Source of the DNA: Planctomycetota bacterium
GTDB lineage: Bacteria; Planctomycetota; Phycisphaerae; FEN-1346
NCBI GenBank assembly: GCA_016872895.1
Contig: VGYT01000008.1
Coordinates: 1 to 36,197, forward strand
Direction of reading: 5' to 3'
DNA: 36,197 nucleotides
The number at the start of each line of letters is the position of its first letter. The first letter of the stretch is position 1. The translations under genes were made by a program, and so were the position numbers. The notes under the pieces are model-generated. The model was given only the letters and a program-made list of their open reading frames with translations, did no database searches and was not told where the DNA came from. Positions 7,038 through 31,895 of the stretch are shown in pieces.

Positions 7038-7116
7038 TCAGAGCCGCGACCGTAAGGGAGCAGTGCCGTCGGGCTGCGTGCGCAACTACACCGCTCCCTT
7101 ACGGTCGCGGCTCTGA
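7038..7116. repeat. Family A palindromic element, intergenic copy
   Basis: The element is 79 bp long. Its first 24 nt (starting TCAGAGCCGCGACCG, 7038-7061) are the exact reverse complement of its last 24 nt (7093-7116), with a 31-nt centre. A second 79-bp copy lies inside gspL (18769-18847), and half-copies lie at 10922-10950 and 18391-18416. Here the arm carries TAA at the position altered in the gspL copies. The stem could also end mreC transcription, but no T tract follows it. Confidence 0.85.
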
Positions 7117-10836: not shown

Positions 10837-10911
10837 CCGGGTGGCATGCCCACACCGCCTTTGCGTGGGCATGCATGCCCGCGGAACGGATGCCGCGGGC
10901 ATGCCACCCGG
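10837..10911. repeat. Family D double-hairpin palindrome upstream of gspE
   Basis: Outer arms of 15 nt (CCGGGTGGCATGCCC, 10837-10851; its exact complement, 10897-10911) enclose, and compete with, two abutting hairpins: a 10-bp stem (10844-10853/10865-10874) and a 12-bp stem (10873-10884/10893-10904). A near-identical copy is translated within the gspG leader (14099-14165). Confidence 0.85.
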
Positions 10912-10921
10912 CAGGCAGGTT

Positions 10922-10950
10922 TCAGAGCCGCGACCGTAAGGGAGCGGTGC
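10922..10950. repeat. Family A half-element upstream of gspE
   Basis: One complete 29-nt arm of family A is present, directly following the family D copy. The partner arm is missing. The arm retains TAA (10937-10939), as in the intergenic copy at 7038. The gspE ribosome binding site begins only 12 nt later. Confidence 0.8.
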
Positions 10951-10980
10951 CGTAAGCAGAGGAGAAAGGGTCGGTTCACG

Positions 10981-14061: not shown

Positions 14062-14583
14062 ATGAATAACACGTCCGCAAGAGCATGTGGCACGGCGTGT
14101 GGCATGCCCACGCCGCCTTTGCGTGGGCATGCATGCCCGCGGAACGGATGCCGCGGGCATGCCACCCGACCGGCCGCCGCCCGGGCCTTTACGCTCATCG
14201 AACTCCTGCTGGTGCTGGTCATCCTGGCCACGCTGGCGGCGCTGGTGGTGCCGAAGTTCACCAGGCGGTCCGAACAGGCCAAGATCACCGGCGCGCGAAC
14301 CGACATCGCGAACATCGAGGTGGCGCTCGACGCCTTCGAGGTGGACTGCGGGCGCTATCCCTCCACCGAGGAGGGCCTCAAGGCGCTCCTCGAACTCCCC
14401 CCCACCCTCGTGGGGTGGCAGGGGCCGTACCTGAAGCGCGGCATGCCCAAGGACCCGTGGGGCAACGCCTATCTGTACCGATGTCCGGGGCAGCACAACC
14501 CCAACGGATGCGACCTGTACTCGTTCGGCGCGGACGGGCAGGAAGGCGGGGGAGACGACATTGATAACTGGTCGGAGCGCTGA
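14062..14583 (+). CDS. gspG: Major pseudopilin GspG with repeat-encoded leader
   Basis: GspG is the main subunit of the type II pseudopilus. The mature part (131 residues from Phe43) begins FTLIELLLVLVILATLAALV and ends with SFGADGQEGG followed by GDDIDNW, the aspartate-rich calcium loop of GspG proteins; the GLKALLE and KDPWGNAYLYRCPG motifs are also present. The cleavage site is Ala42/Phe43. The leader is unusual: 42 residues instead of fewer than ten to about twenty. Residues 13-35 are encoded by a family D palindrome (14099-14165). The ATG at 14062 has AAAGGG 9 nt upstream and is the best start. An in-frame ATG at 14104 inside the repeat lacks any ribosome binding site, and even it keeps most of the repeat in the protein. 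Confidence 0.93.
   Translation: MNNTSARACGTACGMPTPPLRGHACPRNGCRGHATRPAAARAFTLIELLLVLVILATLAALVVPKFTRRSEQAKITGARTDIANIEVALDAFEVDCGRYPSTEEGLKALLELPPTLVGWQGPYLKRGMPKDPWGNAYLYRCPGQHNPNGCDLYSFGADGQEGGGDDIDNWSER
14099..14165. repeat. Family D palindrome translated in the gspG leader
   Basis: This is the second copy of the double-hairpin element at 10837-10911, differing at one central base (CACGCCG for CACACCG) and in its flanks. Outer arms GTGGCATGCCC (14099-14109) and GGGCATGCCAC (14155-14165) are perfect. It lies between the gspG start codon and the prepilin cleavage site, in frame and free of stops. Confidence 0.85.
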
Positions 14584-16384: not shown

Positions 16385-17896
16385 ATGAGACATCGGCGGA
16401 GTGCTGAATGCGGAGTCAAACCAGTGCGGATTGCGGAATGCGGATTGCAGATTAGACGAACAGAAACGACTCATGGAGCGGCGCTGCCCTGGGTCGTTCA
16501 ATCCGCATTCTGCAATCCGCAATCCGCAATGCAAGTGGAGGGCTTGCGCCGCGCCAGGGGCACCGTTCTGATCGTCACCATGTGGATTCTTCTGGTGCTG
16601 GCAGGGCTGGTGCTTGTGCTGGCCCGCACCATGCGCGTGGAGGGCGACCGTTCGGCCAACGGCGTGGCCGCGCTCCAGGCGGCCGCCATCGAGCAGGGTG
16701 CGATCCAGTACGTGCTGGCCGGCGTTGACGGCCTGGCGGGCCGGACGCCGGACGACGCCGATACGCCGTGCGAGGCCGTCCTGGTGGGCGGCGGGGCGTT
16801 CTGGATACTCCGCCCCGCCGGCACCGACTCTCCGGCCACCTACTCATACGGCATCACGGACGAGGCGTCCAAGGTGAACCTGAACACGGCCCCGCTGGAC
16901 ATGCTCTCGAAGTTGCCCGGCATGACGACGGAACTTGCCGCCGCCATCGTTGACTGGCGCGACCCCGACAGCAACGTCACCTCCGGCGGCGCGGAGAGCG
17001 AGTATTACCTGATGCTCGCCGACCCGTACGAGTGCAAGAACGGCCCCCTGGAGACCGTGGAGGAGTTGTTCCTGGTTCGCGACGCCTCGAAGGAGATTCT
17101 CTTCGGCCGCGACGCCAACCGCAACGGCTTCATCGACGCCGGCGAAAGCGACTCCCGCCCCTTCAGCGGCACGTTCACGAGCAGCGGCGCACGCCTCGAC
17201 TGCGGACTCATCAACTATGTGACCGTTTACAGCGCCAGCGCCCCGGGGAGCACCGGCGGCACGGCGCTTGTCAACGTCAACGACCCGCGGTCACAGGCGC
17301 TGGTTGACCTGCTGCGGCAGGCGGTCTCGGCCGACCGGCTTCCGGGCGTCCTGGACCGCGTGCGCCGCGAACGGCCGTTCCGCAGCGTGCTTGATTTCTA
17401 CTATCGCGCCGGCCTGACGAAGGATGAGTTCCAGAAGATCGCCGGCCGGATTACGACCGGCGGCGGGGGAAGCCAGGCGGGACTCATCAACGTCAATACT
17501 GCGCCCAAGGAGGTGCTCCTCTGCCTGCCCGGCCTGGACGAGAGCGACGCTTCCGCCCTCCTGGCTGCACGCCCCACCGACGACGAAGGCCGCAGCAGCA
17601 TCGCCTGGGTGGTACAGGTCCTGTCGCGGGAGAAGGCTGTCGCCATCGGCGGATCCATCACGGCGCAGTCGTACCGGTTCTCGGCCGACATCGTGAGCAT
17701 CGCCCCCGGCGGCCGCGCGTTCAAACGGTGCCGGGTCGTGGTTGATGCCCGCACGAGCCCGCCCCAGGTCATCTATCGGCAGGACCTGACGCACCTGGGC
17801 TGGCCGCTGTCGCAGGACATTGTCGCCAGGCTGCGCTCCGGCCTGCCGGTGGAGAATGTAATCCAGACAACCGGCCTGGAGGTCGCCCCGCAATGA
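16385..17896 (+). CDS. gspK: Minor pseudopilin GspK with EF-hand-like loop
   Basis: GspK caps the pseudopilus. The 503-residue product has the prepilin site RARG/TVLIVTMWILLVLAGLVLVL, then VNLNTAPLDMLSKLPGM and a second VNVNTAPKEVLLCLPGL, the paired helix-hairpin-helix-like motifs of GspK. Residues 243-254 (DANRNGFIDAGE) match a canonical EF-hand calcium loop. The protein is longer than proteobacterial GspK (about 320). The start at 16385 lies 2 nt after the gspJ stop and fits coupling; it implies a 59-residue leader built largely from 7-bp repeats. An ATG at 16529 would give an 11-residue leader but has no ribosome binding site and falls in the repeat. The stop overlaps the gspL start. Confidence 0.9.
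   Translation: MRHRRSAECGVKPVRIAECGLQIRRTETTHGAALPWVVQSAFCNPQSAMQVEGLRRARGTVLIVTMWILLVLAGLVLVLARTMRVEGDRSANGVAALQAAAIEQGAIQYVLAGVDGLAGRTPDDADTPCEAVLVGGGAFWILRPAGTDSPATYSYGITDEASKVNLNTAPLDMLSKLPGMTTELAAAIVDWRDPDSNVTSGGAESEYYLMLADPYECKNGPLETVEELFLVRDASKEILFGRDANRNGFIDAGESDSRPFSGTFTSSGARLDCGLINYVTVYSASAPGSTGGTALVNVNDPRSQALVDLLRQAVSADRLPGVLDRVRRERPFRSVLDFYYRAGLTKDEFQKIAGRITTGGGGSQAGLINVNTAPKEVLLCLPGLDESDASALLAARPTDDEGRSSIAWVVQVLSREKAVAIGGSITAQSYRFSADIVSIAPGGRAFKRCRVVVDARTSPPQVIYRQDLTHLGWPLSQDIVARLRSGLPVENVIQTTGLEVAPQ
16396..16533. repeat. Inverted heptamer arrays in the gspK leader
   Basis: The left side holds heptamers GCGGAGT, GCTGAAT, GCGGAGT (16396-16416) and GCGGATT, GCGGAAT, GCGGATT, GCAGATT (16427-16454). 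The right side (about 16500-16533) holds the complementary AATCCGC, ATTCTGC, AATCCGC, AATCCGC. Together they form an imperfect long inverted repeat. The whole region is translated in frame between the GspK start and its prepilin site. Confidence 0.75.
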
Positions 17897-19428
17897 TGAC
17901 GCCCCGCAGAATGCTGGGCCTGGCCGTGACCGACCGGAGCATCGCGGCCGCCGAGGTCGCCGTCGCGCACGGCCGCCGCAGGGTGCTCCACGCCGCGGAG
18001 TTCCCCATGCCGGAAGGCGACTCCGCACGCGACCCGGCGAACCTGGCGAAGGCGCTCCGGCAGTTCCTGCGGCAGAACCACTTCTGTGCGTCGCGATGCG
18101 TAATCGGCCTGGGGGCCAGGCGGCTGATCGCCAGGGAGAAATCGTTGCCGCCCACCGCGGCCGACCTGCTGCCCGGCGTCCTCTCGATTGCGGCGGAGCG
18201 GGAGTTTGCTTCGGACCCGAAGGACCTCGTTTTCGACTTTGCCGACCCGGTCGCTGCCGGCCAGGGGCAGTCCGTCCTTCTCGTGGCGGCCCCCCGCCGC
18301 AGCGTGGACCTCTTGTCGCAGGCGGCTCAGGCGGCCGGACTGACGGTGGCGGCCGTCACATCCTCCATGATGGCCCTTGCCGGAGCCACGTCAGAGCCGC
18401 GACCGCCAGGGACCGGTGTTGTTGACCCGCGCCCGCCGTCCTCCCGGCGGCTTGTGCTGGACCACTCGCCCGGCGCGGCGGAACTCAGCGTGCAGTCGGG
18501 CGGCGGTTTCCGCCTCCTGAGGCGGCTGGCGATATCGCCCCCCGCTGCGGGTTCATCTCCCCCGGATGGCTGGCTGGACGACCTGGCCGACGAGTTGCAC
18601 CGCGTCGCTGCGCTGTTGCCCGATAGCGGAGGAGCGGCCCAGGCCGCGGACCTGCTCATATGGAACGCGACCGGACTCTCCGCCGAAGCCCTGCGCGTCC
18701 ACGCGAAACGGCTTTCGCTGGAGCAGAGGCTCTGCCAGTACCCTGCCGACCTGGGGATCGACGACGTATCAGAGCCGCGACCGTCAGGGAGCGGTGCCGT
18801 GGCGTGCGCACACCAACAGCACCGCTCCCTTACGGTCGCGGCTCTGAGCGGCAATTTTGCAGCCGCGACCGCGCTGGCGGCGGCCGGCCTCAACAACAAG
18901 AGGCCCGCGGTCGATTTCCTGCATTCGCGCCTGGACCCACGCAAGGCAGTCGCCCTGCGCAAGAAGGTTATCTGGGGCGGCGCCCTGGCCGCAGGGGTGC
19001 TCCTGGCCGCCCTCGCCCTGTTCCTCGACGTGCGCGGCCAGGAGCAGGACGTCCAGGACCTGAAAGACCAACTCGGCGGGATGAAGGAGAGCCTGACGGC
19101 GGCCAAGGACATCGTCGGCAAGGCGGCCTTCGCTCGCGGCTGGTACGACCGCAGGCCCGCGTGCCTCGATTGTCTGCGCGAACTGACCCTGGCGTTTCCG
19201 GTGGAAGGCAAAATATGGACCACGAGCCTTGCCCTTGACGAGGGTCTCCGCGTGCTCCTCTCCGGAAAGGCCAGGGACGAAAGCGCCGTCCTGGAGGTCC
19301 TGGACCGCCTGAAGGCAGATGCCAGGTTCTCGGACGTCAAGCCCCTGTACATCCGCGAGGTCGGCGCAGAGGCACGCGAAGTGTCCTTTGCCATCAGCCT
19401 CAACTTCGCCGGCGCGGAGCGATCATGA
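17893..19428 (+). CDS. gspL: Type II secretion protein GspL with two in-frame repeat insertions
   Basis: GspL is the bitopic protein that links GspE to the periplasmic GspM. The 511-residue product has an N-terminal actin-like (ASKHA, PilM-type) domain starting MLGLAVTDRSIAAAEV, a transmembrane helix near residues 358-378 (VIWGGALAAGVLLAALALFL) and a periplasmic ferredoxin-like tail. The assignment rests on this architecture and on position before gspM. Two pieces foreign to the family interrupt the cytoplasmic domain: residues 167-175 (SEPRPPGTG, family A half-copy) and residues 293-319 (SEPRPSGSGAVACAH..., full family A element). The second falls just before NFAAATALAAAGL, the conserved end of the actin-like fold. 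The gene remains open because the TAA of the repeat is changed in both places. The start overlaps the gspK stop. Confidence 0.87.
   Translation: MMTPRRMLGLAVTDRSIAAAEVAVAHGRRRVLHAAEFPMPEGDSARDPANLAKALRQFLRQNHFCASRCVIGLGARRLIAREKSLPPTAADLLPGVLSIAAEREFASDPKDLVFDFADPVAAGQGQSVLLVAAPRRSVDLLSQAAQAAGLTVAAVTSSMMALAGATSEPRPPGTGVVDPRPPSSRRLVLDHSPGAAELSVQSGGGFRLLRRLAISPPAAGSSPPDGWLDDLADELHRVAALLPDSGGAAQAADLLIWNATGLSAEALRVHAKRLSLEQRLCQYPADLGIDDVSEPRPSGSGAVACAHQQHRSLTVAALSGNFAAATALAAAGLNNKRPAVDFLHSRLDPRKAVALRKKVIWGGALAAGVLLAALALFLDVRGQEQDVQDLKDQLGGMKESLTAAKDIVGKAAFARGWYDRRPACLDCLRELTLAFPVEGKIWTTSLALDEGLRVLLSGKARDESAVLEVLDRLKADARFSDVKPLYIREVGAEAREVSFAISLNFAGAERS
18391..18416. repeat. Degenerate family A half-element inside gspL
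   Basis: TCAGAGCCGCGACCG (18391-18405) matches family A exactly and is followed by a degenerate continuation (CCAGGGACCGGTG for TAAGGGAGCGGTG). In the gspL frame the codon that is TAA in other copies is CCA. No second arm is seen. Confidence 0.7.
18769..18847. repeat. Complete family A element inside gspL
   Basis: The element is 79 bp, exactly the length of the intergenic copy at 7038-7116. Its 29-nt arms (18769-18797, 18819-18847) are complementary except for one base. That base is 18785, where C turns the expected TAA codon (18784-18786) into TCA in the gspL frame. The other arm keeps the unaltered sequence, which is harmless in its phase. Confidence 0.88.
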
Positions 19429-31697: not shown

Positions 31698-31895
31698 CGG
31701 AATTTGGGCATGGTTCAAACAAGCCCCACGCACCGCGTGGGGATGGATGGTGCGGGCCGATCATCCCCCGGCGGTGCCGGGGGCTTTGAACCATGCCGGA
31801 ATTTGGGCATGGTTCAAACAAGCCCCACGCACCGCGTGGGGATGGATGGTGCGGGCCGATCATCCCCCGGCGGTGCCGGGGGCTTTGAACCATGC
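31698..31895. repeat. Exact tandem duplication of a 99-bp palindromic unit
   Basis: Positions 31698-31796 and 31797-31895 are identical over all 99 bases. Each copy folds with an outer 13-bp stem (first copy 31707-31719/31785-31797, GGCATGGTTCAAA) and two inner perfect 8-bp hairpins with 3-nt loops (31724-31731/31735-31742; 31765-31772/31776-31783). This three-arm shape matches families D and E though the sequence differs. The start of a third unit follows (CGGAATTTG, 31896-31904). Confidence 0.92.

Follow-up and report, generated by a model that had tools for sequence, protein, structure and literature searches.

In-frame copies of a REP-like palindrome in gspL and other genes of a Planctomycetota bacterium, with a Y1 transposase as their likely mobiliser

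Introduction

How does a palindromic repeat that usually carries a stop codon come to lie twice inside one open reading frame, and is it then read as part of the protein? The question is raised by a gspL-like gene of a Planctomycetota bacterium, in which two related palindromic segments stand in frame while the codon that is TAA in most copies of the repeat reads TCA in one and CCA in the other. Rickettsia palindromic elements (RPEs), like similar elements of Wolbachia, lie in frame in conserved genes, are translated and tolerated as loops, and are also found in intergenic DNA (Ogata et al., cited in PMC10969869 and PMC2229807); RPEs measure about 105–150 bp and belong to small AT-rich genomes, and no transposase is noted for them in these sources (PMC10969869; PMC2229807). 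The ERIC, NEMIS and Yersinia repeats also provide in-frame palindromes, at a lower frequency than in Rickettsia (PMC10969869; PMC2229807). REP doublets and their Y1 transposases, on the other hand, are established extragenic systems (PMC3116915; PMC8266576), and GTAG/CGTC families of REP sequences have been listed in Planctomycetes (PMC3733652).

Sequence data and searches

The window, by which we mean the whole stretch of 36,197 nucleotides that was analyzed, is the entire contig C8 of a 5.07-Mb metagenome-assembled genome (MAG; 579 contigs, 88.65% complete, 69% GC), and the relatives named by GspL comparison are Planctomycetota MAGs. Counts of elements rest on a sample of 2.04 Mb (the window and contigs C21–C140), about 40% of this fragmented genome, which forms the unbiased part of the data; genes in this fragmented MAG were called by a purpose-built caller with a Markov model trained on the same 2.04 Mb. 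Extra loci outside the sample were picked by an exact TCA or TGA arm, so the weight is placed on the figures of the unbiased sample. Arms were searched with up to three mismatches allowed, and the controls were 100 shuffles for the window and the reversed pattern for the genome. An element was counted as interior and in frame when coding signal was present on both sides in one shared open frame. Transposases were sought by a Pfam search for Y1 in arm-rich relatives, and the loci that it gave were then screened for arms.

Two palindromic segments in the gspL gene

The gspL-like gene (17,893–19,428, forward strand; 511 amino acids in the list of open reading frames) sits within a type II secretion operon of the order gspE-F-G-H-I-J-K-L-M-C-D. 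Its product consists of a PilM-like actin-fold part, a transmembrane helix at about residues 349–377 and a PilN-like C-terminal part; the Pfam matches to PilN and PilM_2 are weak, each below its cut-off, and PilM is the best match of the structural model in Foldseek. The frame runs uninterrupted across both segments. The first, a half-copy, is a single 33-bp unit at 18,390–18,422 (forward strand), which is read as SEPRPPGTGVV at residues ~167–177 and has two mismatches in the 23-nt arm core at 18,394–18,416. Its codons over 18,391–18,416 are TCA GAG CCG CGA CCG CCA GGG ACC GG, and the CCA at 18,406–18,408 (forward strand) occupies the hairpin-loop site, GTNA, where most copies have TAA. The second is a full 79-bp inverted pair of REPIN-like form at 18,769–18,847 (forward strand), read as SEPRPSGSGAVACAHQQHRSLTVAAL, with the codons TCA GAG CCG CGA CCG TCA GGG AGC GGT from 18,769. 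Its left arm (18,772–18,794, forward strand) is an exact match to the consensus with N = C, and the TCA at 18,784–18,786 (forward strand) lies at the same polymorphic loop site; the right arm (18,822–18,844, reverse strand) is likewise exact, with N = A. The preliminary description had placed the full element and the half-copy (18,391–18,416) in the same phase of the gspL frame, both giving SEPRPxGxG with TCA and CCA respectively at the critical codon, had noted that the second arm of the full copy keeps the consensus, which is TTA on the gene strand, and had found TAA in the non-coding copies at 7,038–7,116 and from 10,922 onward. All of this is confirmed by the sequence.

Insert-free orthologues of GspL, 50–69% identical, exist among the relatives. 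Both segments are absent from L061 (69% identical), L062 (60%), L034 (50%) and two remoter proteins, and L036, the most distant orthologue, shows no more than a short, unrelated run of residues at the insert position. Ancestral GspL sequence is ruled out as the source of the two segments by their absence from these five orthologues. At the DNA level, the full copy stands in place of a 13-bp linker of L061 and L062 with a net gain of exactly 66 bp, or 22 residues, and the half-copy adds 30–36 bp, or 10 to 12 residues, relative to the orthologues. Sequence comparison thus identifies both segments as insertions of an apparently mobile REP-like palindrome.

In an AlphaFold model of GspL (six sequences), both inserts form disordered loops of low confidence, residues 167–184 and 289–321, which lie between secondary-structure elements of the actin-like part and ahead of the predicted membrane helix; the confidence of the modelling is modest, with a mean pLDDT of 59 for GspL and 65.5 for a second model. 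The dN/dS ratios, 0.29 against L061 and 0.46 against L062, indicate that gspL is under constraint, that is, purifying selection. The inserts are very probably translated and, we infer, tolerated within the actin-like part, in line with the earlier reading.

The repeat unit and its relatives

Two intergenic copies of this repeat, here called family A, share the window with gspL: a full 79-bp copy at 7,038–7,116 (forward strand), in which both arms have TAA, and a single unit with TAA at 10,921–10,953 (forward strand), upstream of the gspE start. The arm GAGCCGCGACCGTNAGGGAGCGG has six matches in the window at up to three mismatches, at the sites of the copies named here, and none in the 100 shuffles; the genome-wide search at the same threshold gave 149 + 149 arms (about 298), and the reversed control gave none. 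A chance or low-complexity origin of the repeat is ruled out by these zeros.

Alignment of singles, tandems and flanks gives a basic unit of 33 bp (11 codons), ATCAGAGCCGCGACCGTNAGGGAGCGGTGCCGT. The unit is an imperfect palindrome with mismatches in its stem, CCGC-GA-CC / GG-GA-GCGG, and a GTNA loop; a DNA fold of the unit pairs CCGC with GCGG and CC with GG. The variable N is the third base of the loop, as assigned by inspection, and is therefore free to vary without touching the stem. Units occur alone, in 33-bp tandems and in inverted pairs, and the hairpin formed by an inverted pair is very stable. Of 20 same-orientation tandems, 18 have a spacing of 33 nt and 2 of 34 nt; inverted pairs account for 28 of the 90 elements of the sample, most commonly at a spacing of 50 nt, and singles are the majority. 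The consensus of the flanking bases reads CCG[T/A]ATCA at one end and TGCCGT at the opposite end, and it contains no GTAG or CGTC tag next to the stem. For a target-site duplication the signs are mixed: GCCGT flanks certain copies at either end, but the full gspL copy appears to have taken the place of 13 bp.

The relatives G001 and G004, whose GspL is free of inserts, have one arm each. In G002 the dominant repeat, present on many contigs, is a sister family whose stem, CCGCGACCGTNAGGTCGCGG, is perfect and whose loop is likewise GTNA; a few copies of it occur in the source genome. Exact arms are also present in 58 stretches of IMG/VR viral contigs (L289–L346), in some of them as regular arrays, and no transposase of the clade described below (A2) was found in those stretches. 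The window itself contains a second palindromic family in two copies of 79 nt that are 95% identical (10,838–10,916 and 14,096–14,174). The latter copy is in frame in an open reading frame at 14,062–14,583, where it lies shortly ahead of the gspG prepilin motif FTLIELL, and it may provide that frame with its start codon and leader. A perfect tandem duplication of 99 nt lies at 31,698–31,895 of the window.

Elements inside other genes

In the 2.04-Mb sample, 133 arms make up 90 elements, of which 52 are intergenic, 26 internal to genes and 12 at gene edges. The gene-internal share, about 29%, is strongly depleted compared with the coding density of 86%. In-frame elements with coding sequence on both sides number about 15 in the unbiased sample and 23 with the extra loci, and there is one with a stop. 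Their hosts include phosphoglycerate kinase (PGK), MiaB, DhaL, an ArgE-like deacetylase, a ferredoxin/ASKHA protein, an FAD oxidoreductase (two copies) and AddA/AddB-like helicases. For six genes besides gspL (PGK, MiaB, DhaL, ArgE-like, ASKHA/ferredoxin-like and FAD oxidoreductase), the insert is absent from all close orthologues checked, which came from G001, G004 and G005 and are 55–76% identical, except for remoter paralogues in the case of ArgE. MiaB (against three genomes), the ArgE-like protein and the FAD oxidoreductase gain a net 11 residues, the ASKHA protein 11 or 12, PGK 12 and DhaL 14. The gspL gene is one instance of a genome-wide phenomenon.

The PGK case bears directly on the possibility that gspL is a decaying or redundant gene in which the inserts merely hitch-hike, so that they say nothing about tolerance by proteins. 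Two inserts in a single fast-evolving gene with weak Pfam scores would be in keeping with such decay, but the 511-codon frame of gspL is intact in a complete operon and its dN/dS ratios speak of constraint, and an insert of the same kind is carried by the only PGK gene of the genome. This PGK, normal in other respects, has 421 residues and matches solved structures from end to end, with the insert in a low-confidence loop between structured elements. We consider neutral hitch-hiking very improbable.

At six loci (L076:1055, L095:17470, L105:11532, L106:12920, L156:9583 and L173:5428), a gene ends exactly at the TAA or TGA of an element. The C-termini there are SEPRP or a close variant, which means that the repeat supplies the stop codon.

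Stop codon, loop base and reading frame

The preliminary description went further and proposed that selection had kept gspL open through two different changes of the same TAA codon. Across the genome, the N base is A, C, G or rarely T, and TAA is the commonest form without being the only non-coding one: the 81 intergenic arms comprise TAA 55, CAA 9, TGA 7, TCA 7, TAG 2 and TGG 1. All interior arms in the SEPRP frame (phase 0) are NCA (eight TCA, two CCA and one GCA over the whole set; 6/6 in the unbiased sample), against 62 of 81 intergenic arms with TAA or TGA; much of the pattern is built in, because a stop would end the called gene. The part of the earlier claim that concerns the gspL codons stands, and interior copies of this phase lack the stop. 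Loss of the stop is ruled out as the sole force on the N base, since C is enriched also where TAA would be harmless: in stop-harmless frames, 9 of 19 interior copies have C compared with 27 of 168 (full set, p = 0.003; unbiased sample, p = 0.01).

These figures bear on the explanation in which each gspL copy inserted with TAA and later mutated independently, under selection for GspL, one to TCA and one to CCA. That one gene should hold two differing codons of equal effect fits such a repair, as does the uniform NCA of phase-0 arms. No CCA was seen among the 81 intergenic arms, which makes the half-copy the better case for a change after insertion. An insertion with TAA, however, would truncate GspL at once, so a null-gene intermediate would have to survive. 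Moreover, copies with TCA do exist outside genes: TCA occurs in 29 exact arms genome-wide, some of them intergenic, and there are intergenic inverted pairs of one TCA and one TAA arm, the same make-up as the gspL pair. Together with the enrichment of C in the other frames, these open copies mean that capture or survival of a copy already open accounts for gspL no less well than a later mutation would. We regard repair as unlikely. Our reading is instead that protein tolerance filters the insertions and that polymorphism of the loop supplies the open copies.

The frames in use point in the same direction. Within the unbiased sample, every single or tandem element inside a gene (13/13) is read in one of three frames (p = 2.7e-4 against a stop-only null). 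The three, out of six, are SEPRPSGSGA (the SEPRP frame), QSRDRxGAxP and PLPxGRGSD, all of them flexible hydrophilic peptides. So strong a frame bias argues against the view that the in-gene repeats are favored as regulatory or structural elements of RNA or DNA, for example an mRNA hairpin or attenuator, with the peptide as a by-product. The full gspL copy would suit such a role, as its single-strand DNA fold is very stable (-41 kcal/mol, z = -10), but the majority of copies inside genes consist of one arm, whose hairpin is weak (z -0.4 to -0.9). A search of Rfam with the element returned no family above the gathering score and only sub-threshold matches to miRNA hairpins, by which a structured RNA family is also rejected as the identity of the repeat. 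A regulatory or structural role has, in our judgment, only a very slight chance of being right.

Y1 transposases flanked by the arms in relatives

A distinct clade of Y1 transposases (A2 in our alignment) is flanked by family-A arms at L278 (G054), L280 (G046) and L281 (G059), and in G003 three of the eight arms bracket a clade-A2 gene, as taken from coordinates. The background is 3 arm-like matches in 217 kb of relatives' loci that were not chosen for arms. Across 61 genomes, the number of arms is correlated with the best clade-A2 score (Spearman 0.61), with p = 1.7e-7, a value that is optimistic because the genomes are phylogenetically related. There are counter-cases of both kinds: G030 and G035 have the transposase and zero arms, and the arm-rich G002, G022, G023 and G034 have no strong member of the clade. 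The clade-A2 protein scores 32.5 against the model of the REP-associated tyrosine transposase (NF047646, cut-off 80) and similarly, 33.6, against IS200; judged by these scores, A2 is a distinct Y1 clade that is related to the REP-associated and IS200 models and falls below their cut-offs.

In the source assembly no arm-flanked transposase was found. The three Y1 genes found in this 88.65%-complete assembly have no arms around them, on which ground a resident RAYT is rejected as the source, and its nearest counterpart of the arm-linked clade scores weakly, at 54 bits. With no strong clade member in the source genome, the link from transposase to gspL copies is drawn from the relatives, and on that ground the family in gspL is likely moved by a single-strand HUH/Y1 transposase of the REP-associated type.

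Transposases nested in tRNA synthetase genes

In two of these relatives the transposase lies within a tRNA synthetase gene. At L280, a stretch of 1076 codons is one open frame that runs from alanyl-tRNA synthetase through arms, Y1 transposase and arms back into alanyl-tRNA synthetase (L280:1–3228; G046:C77:148001–151024, forward strand; open frame of 1450 aa); the gene has an additional in-frame repeat pair upstream. At L281, Y1 and arms are in frame within valyl-tRNA synthetase, between the residues that match 363 and 373 of the Thermus enzyme (L281:1–3210; G059:C7:110145–113201, reverse strand; open frame of 1283 aa). A Y1 of another subfamily, without family-A arms, is in frame in the leucyl-tRNA synthetase gene of G034 (L269:1–3165 on C17, reverse strand), and one more of another subfamily lies, by coordinates, within valyl-tRNA synthetase of the same genome (G034:C3:192404–195703). 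No second copy of the interrupted synthetase was found in G046, G059 or G034, and the genomes with nested transposases are 93–97% complete. At L278, the transposase is in a DUF1156 methylase-like frame filled with arms, and strong clade-A2 matches at G042:C36:72419–72883 and G028:C103:6377–6841 fall in frames that stay open for 1512 and 1672 codons. A Pfam scan of four nested frames for a splicing (Hint) domain found none, and only Y1_Tnp and the host domains were present.

A scenario for entry into proteins

We think it probable that gspL contains a mobile REP-like palindrome that is kept by a filter of frame and stop and likely moved by a HUH/Y1 transposase. The 33-bp unit would land inside a gene and be read as an extra flexible loop that leaves the protein unbroken; its length of 11 codons and its flexible hydrophilic peptide in three frames would make such a landing tolerable. 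Insertions in these three frames would pass the filter, with the added demand in the SEPRP frame that the loop base give NCA. The candidate mobiliser would be the Y1 transposase that in relatives is flanked by the same arms and is itself in frame within host genes. A point against clean single-strand insertion is that the full gspL copy appears to replace 13 bp.

A wider reading can be offered tentatively, with chances we put a little below even: that of an element class adapted to coding sequence, with repeats of 11 codons, small forms that add loops, and an autonomous form whose HUH transposase is an in-frame domain inside single-copy aminoacyl-tRNA synthetases, intein-like without splicing.

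Until now, in-frame palindromes have been known mainly from Rickettsia and Wolbachia, for which PMC10969869 and PMC2229807 name no mobiliser. A literature search that covered few subscription journals turned up neither this family nor in-frame REP units in Planctomycetota, and no Y1 transposase inside a tRNA synthetase. The 33-bp in-frame unit and the arm-flanked nested transposases reach further than the original claim on gspL, and the nested transposases are the newest part: if expressed as read, transposases in single-copy tRNA synthetase genes would be a new tie between a mobile element and an essential gene. With hundreds of copies, a unit of 33 bp, relatives of the same family whose orthologues lack the inserts, and a transposase as candidate mobiliser, the entry of selfish DNA into proteins and its survival there become testable.

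Comparison with known systems

The family resembles the elements of Rickettsia and Wolbachia in that palindromes lie in frame in conserved genes, here seven by comparison with orthologues, and also in intergenic DNA. Unlike RPEs, as compared by description, it has a 33-bp REP-like unit, belongs to a Planctomycetota genome of 69% GC and is linked to Y1 in relatives. With REP, REPIN and RAYT systems it shares high-copy short imperfect palindromes, singles along with inverted doublets, and a HUH Y1 transposase flanked by them in relatives, but about 29% of its elements are gene-internal, it has no GTAG tag and its cognate transposases are within host frames. Like the intragenic MITEs (ERIC, NEMIS of 107 bp and YPAL; PMC2229807), it brings short non-autonomous repeats into frame with host genes, whereas those elements are 100–170 bp, with target duplications in several families, and the unit here is 33 bp. 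Finally, the nested genes differ from inteins, as the inner protein is a Y1 transposase flanked by repeats in frame and has no Hint domain, and they are like inteins in that, in relatives, the enzyme of a mobile element is encoded in frame within essential enzymes such as tRNA synthetases.
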